Positions 18,890 to 19,419 of a DNA stretch of 21,617 nucleotides are shown in pieces. The notes under the pieces were generated by a model. It was given only the letters and a program-made list of their open reading frames with translations, did no database searches and was not told the DNA's origin. Positions within the stretch are counted from its first letter, which is position 1, and each line of letters begins with the position of its first letter. Source of the stretch: a virus; IMG/VR virus record IMGVR_UViG_3300023278_002973, positions 1-21,617 of that record; one strand, given 5' to 3'. Position numbers and translations under genes: made by a program.

Positions 18890-18941
18890 ATTATACTCGC
18901 TCTTAGGGGGTCTGTCAACCCCTTTTCTAAGTTTTTTTTTT
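18890..18941 (-). promoter_or_regulatory. Full-consensus sigma70 promoter with an A-tract UP-like element
   Basis: On the minus strand TTGACA (18913-18918), a 17-base spacer and TATAAT (18890-18895) are all at consensus. An unbroken A10 run (18932-18941) lies at about -49 to -58, where UP elements contact the alpha subunit of RNA polymerase. This is the strongest-looking promoter in the window and has the make-up of a stable-RNA promoter. Transcription should begin near 18883. Confidence 0.85.
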
Positions 18942-18946
18942 CAAAA

Positions 18947-19027
18947 TGGAGGAGGAGGGAATCGAACCCTCGTCTTCGTTGGTTCCGACATGCGGCTTTC
19001 CCCGAATCGACTACCAAATACACCCCC
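18947..19027 (-). ncRNA. tRNA-like element resembling the tmRNA tRNA-like domain
   Basis: It is 81 bases long. The acceptor GGGGGTG pairs with CTCCTCC with G3-U70 (the alanine identity pair) and one U-U mismatch; discriminator A. The T arm GAGGG-TTCGATT-CCCTC is perfect. No D stem and no anticodon arm can be drawn. Instead TATTTGGTA (a D-loop analogue with GG) leads to a helix GTC(GA)TTCG / CGAAGAC (19011-19003 with 18978-18972) stacked directly before the T arm, with a 24-base loop holding CCG-CATGT-CGG. In tmRNA an acceptor with G3-U70, a stemless D loop and helix P2 have exactly this arrangement, and the 5' end (GGGGxUG then xUxUGG) resembles tmRNA 5' ends. No tag reading frame with a stop fits inside. 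A degenerate or unusual tRNA is the alternative. Confidence 0.6.
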
Positions 19028-19030
19028 GAT

Positions 19031-19084
19031 AAAAAAAAGACAGTGCGGGCTGGGCAGACGCTTCCCAGAAATTACCACCGCACT
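19031..19084 (-). terminator. Two-part stem with T8 tract before the tRNA-like element
   Basis: On the minus strand AGTGCGG/CCGCACT (7 bp) encloses CTGGG/CCCAG (5 bp, 9-base loop) with a 9-base one-sided bulge TGGTAATTT; GTC and then eight Ts follow. It would end transcripts of the upstream regulator gene. The large bulge is unusual for a simple terminator. The tRNA-like element starts 4 bases after the T run. Confidence 0.65.
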
Positions 19085-19092
19085 CTCTCAAT

Positions 19093-19151
19093 TCTTGATG
19101 AGGATTTTACCCCTCATCAAGATCTGCTCTTTACTTTATATATGTATAAAG
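19093..19151 (-). other. Two hairpins between the regulator gene and the terminator
   Basis: TCTTGATGAGG/CCTCATCAAGA (11 bp, 8-base loop GGTAAAAT, 19093-19122) and CTTTATA/TATAAAG (7 bp, 4-base loop, 19134-19151) lie directly after the regulator stop codon. Neither is followed by a T run. They could protect the 3' end of the mRNA or be processing sites. Apart from these hairpins and the neighbouring terminator and tRNA-like element, 18942-19152 holds no gene that I can see. Confidence 0.5.
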
Positions 19152-19152
19152 A

Positions 19153-19419
19153 TTACAGAGCGTAGCGACGACCCATGGGATCGAAACCGAAGCTTCGCTC
19201 ACCGGGATGAGTGTCTTCCATGAAGTAACGGGTCTTACCAGTGCTCGTGGGGGACGAGGTGATTTCCCAGTTACCGTGGGCTTCAACCATATCACGGATG
19301 TCGCTGATGGTAGCGCGGAGGTTTGCAACTCCAAAACGGCTACGTGCTTCGCCTTCAGTGAGGCCCTTACCGGACGCAAGATAGTTGATCACACGTCGCT
19401 TCTTAGTCATAGTTGGCAT
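19153..19419 (-). CDS. Winged-helix/HTH DNA-binding regulator
   Basis: The protein has 88 residues. KKRRVINYLASGKGLTEGEARSRFGVANLRATISDIRDM (6-44) is a helix, then a turn-helix pair with a GLTEGEARSRFGV recognition region, followed by WEITSSPTSTGKTRYFM (51-67), which forms the beta-wing. The domain resembles short HTH proteins of phages that act as transcriptional regulators. The C-terminus (GFDPMGRRYAL) is a short tail. The ATG at 19419 is preceded by AAGGAATGG, 11 bases away; an internal ATG at 19410 is the alternative. It is transcribed from its own sigma70 promoter with a leader of about 85 bases that can form a pseudoknot, suggesting controlled translation. Confidence 0.78.
   Translation of the reverse strand: MPTMTKKRRVINYLASGKGLTEGEARSRFGVANLRATISDIRDMVEAHGNWEITSSPTSTGKTRYFMEDTHPGERSFGFDPMGRRYAL

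Follow-up and report, generated by a model that had tools for sequence, protein, structure and literature searches.

A short tag-less tmRNA-like RNA shared by phages and cyanobacterial tRNA arrays

Positions 1 to 21,617 of the viral record IMGVR_UViG_3300023278_002973, analysed as a whole and hereafter called the window, come from a marine phage and carry a small RNA gene that we identify with high confidence as a phage tmRNA cut down to its tRNA-like domain (TLD) and a capped P2 helix, its tag-coding and pseudoknot parts gone. The gene belongs to a family of at least 116 distinct sequences of 73-82 nt, mostly viral. Members are homologous to tmRNA, share a common structure, keep alanine identity elements and lack a tag frame; they interchange with tagging tmRNAs at a phage locus, and they coexist with full tmRNA. 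Joined to the mechanism proposed below, this identity provides the best explanation that we can offer, and a moderately probable one.

Results

The element and its fold

The whole element, which runs from 19027 to 18947 on the minus strand, is GGGGGUGUAUUUGGUAGUCGAUUCGGGGAAAGCCGCAUGUCGGAACCAACGAAGACGAGGGUUCGAUUCCCUCCUCCUCCA (Table 1). It is not a full tmRNA. A sequence-only reading of the window had drawn attention to this location, which is borne out here, with the minus strand as the one that carries the RNA. Several parts of that reading hold: the perfect T arm, here seen to have a 5-bp stem and a UUCGAUU loop, the G3·U70 pair (G3 at position 19025) with A73, and the GG-containing D-loop analogue, which includes UGG and has no D stem. 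Other parts required correction. The acceptor, given as 7 bp, consists of six pairs and a U6·U67 mismatch in the window; all seven pairs are present in a close relative, L053. The helix proposed before the T arm exists and is P2-like, but it is not 7 bp long and GAC lies between it and the T arm. It comprises four pairs (UUCG/CGAA), AA facing GG as a bulge or tandem G·A, and then one or two pairs, while the L053 helix runs through 8 continuous bp, UUCGUGGU/ACUACGAA. The interior does lack a tag frame, as had been stated, yet it is not an open loop, since a small apical hairpin found there is a feature of the family. CCA is absent from the element's own DNA, in which UUU directly follows A73.

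Table 1 Features of the element and its surroundings in the window
Feature	Position	Strand	Remarks
Tag-less tmRNA-like RNA gene, 81 nt	18947..19027	(-)	5′ end 19027, discriminator A73 at 18947
Acceptor stem, 5′ strand GGGGGUG	19021..19027	(-)	Partner 18948-18954 save U6·U67
D-loop analogue UAUUUGGUAGUCGA, no D stem	19007..19020	(-)	UGG 19014-19016, UCGA 19007-19010
P2-like helix, 5′ strand UUCGGGGA	18999..19006	(-)	Degenerate in window, intact in L053
Apical part AAGCCGCAUGUCGGAA with hairpin CCG-CAUGU-CGG	18983..18998	(-)	Family consensus AAAGCCGCAYGCGGA
P2-like helix, 3′ strand CCAACGAA	18975..18982	(-)	A1 alignment and family covariation
GAC linker, P2 to T stem (tmRNA GGAC)	18972..18974	(-)	RF00023 consensus also has linker
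T arm GAGGG-UUCGAUU-CCCUC	18955..18971	(-)	5/5 pairs
Acceptor stem, 3′ strand CUCCUCC + A73	18947..18954	(-)
Intrinsic terminator, stem GUGCGG...CCGCAC + 8 U	19031..19084	(-)	Aligned in L049, L052-L055
88-aa protein gene, PHROG 4973, unknown function	19153..19419	(-)	Synteny anchor
Sigma-70-type promoter TTGACA-17-TATAAT	18890..18918	(-)	12/12 consensus; also in L052, L053

The standard tools that the sequence-only reading had recommended pass over the element. ARAGORN called a tRNA-Leu, a tRNA-Arg and a tRNA-Lys elsewhere in the window, and Rfam at gathering level returned the same three tRNAs only. With relaxed Rfam thresholds, RF00023 gave a partial, mis-stretched match of 17.8 bits with an incorrect placement, and the permuted tmRNA model, whose cut-off is 47, gave a partial match of 21.9 bits. 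An unusual tRNA, or one half of a permuted two-piece tmRNA, is an extremely improbable identity for the element, despite its tRNA-like T arm and acceptor and the permuted tmRNA of the sister phage L057. By ARAGORN, Rfam and inspection, the window element has no anticodon arm, no D stem and no tag frame, which led us to reject an ordinary tRNA; the earlier reading, too, could draw no anticodon arm. The permuted form was rejected because the parts come in the wrong order: in permuted tmRNAs the T arm comes ahead of the 5′ acceptor strand, whereas here it comes after that strand, and the score is far under the cut-off.

The folding energy of the element was uninformative (z -0.14 against shuffles), so the case for it rests on comparison.

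A family defined by covariation

Relatives were collected with three DNA patterns. Pattern 1, a loose pattern made from the element, matched 46 viral stretches, of which roughly half were plainly of the same kind; pattern 2 matched 36 viral and 19 bacterial stretches, the latter all from filamentous or related cyanobacteria; and pattern 3, which left everything free, the acceptor included, except TCGAC, GGAC and the T arm, matched at least 120. Pattern 1 also brought up other short genes. Four loci (L003, L005, L018, L029) hold phage tRNA-Ala(UGC)-like genes of 69-71 nt with an odd D arm, and three (L019, L033, L041) hold short tRNA-like genes with G3·U70 and a sequence such as CUUUAGA that resembles an anticodon loop; these may be alanine-type stop suppressors.

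In a plain MAFFT alignment of 32 sequences (A1), 92.4% of cells are paired, compared with 47-57% when the partners are slid, and the covariation score is 0.642 compared with at most 0.114. All eight P2 pairs change on both sides. U12, G13, G14, U18, G20 and A21 are invariant in these 32 sequences, in part because the search patterns fixed them, and so is A55 of the GAC linker. A second MAFFT alignment (A2) misplaced the Streptomyces phage sequences at their 5′ ends, and another alignment (A3) was used for modelling instead. A3 holds 59 distinct sequences, none from the window lineage; being fitted to the structure of our first covariance model (R1), it is biased in favour of that structure, and it gives 97.6% paired cells (40-54% slid) and a covariation score of 0.758 (at most 0.103 slid). 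The T stem is fully paired (100%) in A1 and A3.

The alanine identity elements are nearly absolute in A3, with G3·U70 in 58 of the 59 distinct relatives and U70 and A73 in all 59, and this conservation was not forced, because pattern 3 did not touch the acceptor. The acceptor is paired at 7/7 positions in 96% of the family, falling to 15% when 5′ and 3′ halves are crossed between members; likewise, the share in which P2 positions 1-6 all pair falls from 75% to 2%. Of the 116 distinct members counted, 83% have an apical hairpin with 3 bp or more, against 34% of shuffles. The search for compensatory changes that the sequence-only reading had proposed thus shows P2 to be kept by compensation at 7-8 of its 8 pairs; neither of the outcomes named there as contrary to it, a normal tRNA fold or loss of P2 and G3·U70 among homologues, was found. 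Homology, together with the overwhelming covariation of the family's helices, argues that the window element is more than a chance arrangement of bases.

R1 was built from 32 sequences, with the window lineage within its training set, and gives the window element 70 bits. R2 was built only from A3 (74 relatives, 59 distinct sequences), none of them from the window's phage lineage, and still gives 56.3 bits (E 1.1e-11). Nothing else in the window matched R2 at E <= 0.01, and full tmRNAs reached only 23-28 bits in the same search. R1 matched 74 of the 78 loci L126-L203 at E <= 1e-4 and scored at least 50 bits in 30 of the other 35 loci; three doubtful loci (L170, L187 and L194, 46-47 bits) were excluded from the final count. 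The family count draws on 134 viral records, including the window and cultured phages, and on cyanobacterial loci. Members are mostly metagenomic, and their independence means different contigs and diverged sequences, not known hosts. One 136-kb viral contig (G346, the contig of L177) has two tag-less elements, at 42520 and 109671, about 67 kb apart.

By BLAST, the window region had no match among cultured phages, and no relative was found in E. coli genomes. BLAST matches in Caulobacter, Ruegeria, Pseudomonas SM1, Lacusarx and Marzo phages covered the T-arm part only and were not counted; some of these are annotated as tmRNA.

Derivation from tmRNA

Most relatives align to RF00023 from end to end, over model positions 1-374 with about 306 deleted. 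In L015, which scores 81.1 bits, 14 nt replace 306 positions. Thirty-two of the 34 carrier records lie above the RF00023 cut-off; the window copy lies below it. No second, full-length tmRNA was found in these 34 records. Compared feature by feature with tmRNA, the family has the TLD, G3·U70 with A73, and P2 with its linker, and has no tag frame, resume codon or pseudoknots. What the short RNA shares with bacterial tmRNA is the G3·U70/A73 acceptor, the stem-less D-loop UGG..UCGAC, P2, the GGAC linker and the T arm, whereas it differs in its length of 73-82 nt. The D-loop analogue of the window itself corresponds, in the RF00023 alignment, to the tmRNA 5′ end ..UGG.UUCGAC. The central proposal of the sequence-only reading, a tmRNA tRNA-like domain without a tag, is accordingly supported by homologues, by covariation, by the RF00023 alignment of relatives and by the tmRNAs of sister phages described below. 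About 105 nt upstream of the L015 element lies a Pistol ribozyme (L015:6093-6154, minus strand, 51.9 bits).

TLD-only tmRNA is already known from one phage, DS6A, and from some organelles. The DS6A RNA is, like ours, a phage RNA with little beyond the tmRNA TLD and no tag frame (PMC4131195, PMC11915505), although the papers concern one phage and the present family is far wider; the two are likened here by description only. The tmRNAs of mitochondria and Mallomonadaceae plastids (about 65 bp; PMC11915505) also lack a tag frame. These organellar forms are presumably reduced resident genes, whereas the family described here is mobile and occurs in phages and in tRNA arrays, beside the host's full tmRNA. 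Full and permuted phage tmRNAs (Melnitz, PMC9004378; L054, L057, L083) are likewise phage ssrA genes, in the window lineage at the same locus, and differ from the window element in encoding a tag.

A very unlikely reading is that the element is without function, the relic of a decayed phage tmRNA or ssrA attachment site. Its acceptor mismatch and interrupted P2 are what decay might leave, and some phages do have ssrA 3′ ends beside integrases. The window copy is indeed one of the weaker members on account of these two defects, and it could be decaying. However, both halves of the RNA are present and covary in 59 distinct sequences of other lineages, a diverged member of the window's own lineage (L053) is perfectly paired, and 30 of 107 loci encode CCA where 1.7 would be expected by chance. 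An attP/ssrA scar was rejected because the RNA has its 5′ half and this half covaries. Scars of this kind probably occur elsewhere: in Mycobacterium phage Shandong1, an unannotated stretch resembling an ssrA 3′ end (L116:2501-2552) lies by a tyrosine integrase and is probably an attachment site.

The locus in sister phages

The window phage is T4-like (gp32-type SSB, baseplate wedge), and the 88-aa gene upstream of the element served to retrieve sister loci. Besides that gene, these loci share a conserved hairpin and a structured terminator, which in the window ends 3 nt upstream of the element's 5′ end, a position that makes the element's own promoter hard to place and counts somewhat against the proposed reading. 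What follows the terminator varies. In the window, L048/L049 and L053 it is the short RNA; in L054 it is a small ORF and then a full tmRNA (tag ADNSYALAA, 151 bits); in L050, L052 and L055 there is no tmRNA after it. L057 has a permuted tmRNA (73.8 bits) downstream of the same 88-aa gene, and the more distant L083, whose synteny was not aligned base by base, has a full tmRNA (tag GTTPFALAA, 109.8 bits). The short form could have come to this locus either by deletion or by exchange. The promoter just downstream of the element is the start of the next unit and lies outside the RNA.

The hairpin and terminator form a conspicuous structure of their own (19031-19122, minus strand), in which the conserved hairpin is followed by an elaborate terminator, GUGCGGUGG..CUGGGAAGCGUCUGCCCAG..CCGCAC-U8. 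Sister phages keep both, whether or not they have the element, and the structure seems more constrained than an ordinary terminator. Directly upstream of the permuted tmRNA in L057 (L057:3330-3535) is a manA RNA motif of 54.1 bits, just below its cut-off. No photosystem reaction-centre genes (psbA-type) were found in seven contigs of the lineage.

Cultured phages, cyanobacteria and tRNA arrays

Cultured carriers are the Streptomyces phages LuckySocke, BRock and Shaeky, scored with the models (66-68 bits with R1, 78-84 bits with R2), and GiJojo, pSt2308 and Alone3, found by BLAST only. In the first three, the short RNA is unannotated and lies inside a tRNA cluster. Across the family, tRNA genes occur within 1 kb in 23 of 107 loci; 56 such tRNAs are on the same strand as the short RNA and 1 is on the opposite strand.

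The short RNA is present in only 5 of 292 sampled cyanobacterial genomes under strict filters, including the Nostoc that served as centre. All 15 Nostocales-type genomes tested have a full tmRNA in addition to the short RNA. In three cyanobacterial loci (L240, L241, L244) a tRNA array includes the short RNA among its units; in L241 the RNA sits between tRNA-Arg and tRNA-Cys with tRNA-like spacing. In Anabaena, translational stress induces a comparable array, the trn operon, which helps the cells to survive (PMC10272220). This is the type of array in which the short RNA of these loci sits, although the paper mentions no tmRNA-like unit (PMC10272220).

Discussion

Proposed action

AlaRS requires G3·U70 and A73, and SmpB binding requires contact between the D-loop and T-loop (PMC3968760). 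The sequence features needed for each are kept in the family. We infer from these features that the short RNA would be expressed, processed like a tRNA and given CCA, then charged with alanine by host AlaRS through G3·U70 and A73. Host SmpB would bind its D-loop/T-arm elbow, and EF-Tu would bring it into ribosomes that have stalled on broken mRNA, where it would accept the nascent chain and offer no resume codon; having no template, it cannot tag. In competition with host tmRNA, stalled chains of the phage or of the stressed cell could then escape tagging for proteolysis. Tag-free rescue or blocked tagging would be the most likely result of this competition. As a whole, the mechanism, in which a charged, SmpB-bound competitor takes stalled chains untagged, has in our judgement an even chance of being correct. 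Tagging can hurt viruses, since deletion of tmRNA in recoded E. coli restores UAG-containing viruses (PMC6207430). The suggestion of the sequence-only reading that the element might instead serve in the virion or in replication found no support.

The carriers themselves bear on how the RNA may act. No SmpB gene was found in the 34 carrier records, so the short RNA must use host SmpB. The same absence would suit a pure sink, in which the RNA titrates SmpB (or AlaRS/EF-Tu) and switches trans-translation off with no productive entry into ribosomes. A DS6A-like TLD-only RNA inhibits tmRNA in E. coli, reportedly whether charged or not (PMC4131195, PMC11915505), and the inhibition was reported to be strong, to need no charging and perhaps to act by SmpB titration (PMC4131195). 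Titration alone, however, would let the alanine identity pair drift. The pair is strict, and a charged competitor is therefore favoured over a sink, which has no need of the charging that near-absolute G3·U70 and A73 suggest is under selection. A place in cellular tRNA arrays beside normal tRNAs also suits an aid to translation more than sabotage. We regard the sink as unlikely.

A helper in tag-free rescue is likewise rather doubtful. Such an RNA would take the chain and be released, for example by peptidyl-tRNA hydrolase, freeing ribosomes during phage takeover or antibiotic stress. Similar tag-free rescue has been proposed for tag-less mitochondrial tmRNA. The short RNA's interchange with full tmRNAs at one phage locus fits a helper, as does the location in tRNA arrays, the comparable Anabaena array being stress-induced (PMC10272220). 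On the other hand, release of the ribosome is unexplained when there is neither template nor stop codon, and the TLD-only RNA expressed in E. coli inhibited and did not rescue (PMC11915505). The competitor that is charged and bound by SmpB remains the reading that we prefer.

Significance

In the open-licence literature of PubMed Central we found no description of a widespread phage family of this kind, of P2 with an apical hairpin, of a place in cyanobacterial tRNA arrays or of alternation with full tmRNAs. New here is a large covarying family that extends over well over a hundred viral contigs, cultured Streptomyces phages and cyanobacterial tRNA arrays. It also exposes a gap in annotation: nearly all members are missed by ARAGORN, and many are labelled plain tmRNA by Rfam.

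Why tmRNAs of mitochondria, plastids and phages drop the tag and yet stay conserved is an old question that can now be tested, as can the question of whether phages disarm or re-route the host's ribosome rescue and protein tagging. We tentatively suggest, at somewhat less than even confidence, that these RNAs represent a widespread and unrecognised class of mobile, alanine-charged, tag-less tmRNAs, with which phages and stress-induced tRNA arrays may commandeer ribosome rescue. If so, stalled chains would be accepted without a mark for proteolysis, and phages would be able to exchange tagging, permuted and tag-less forms for one another at one locus.
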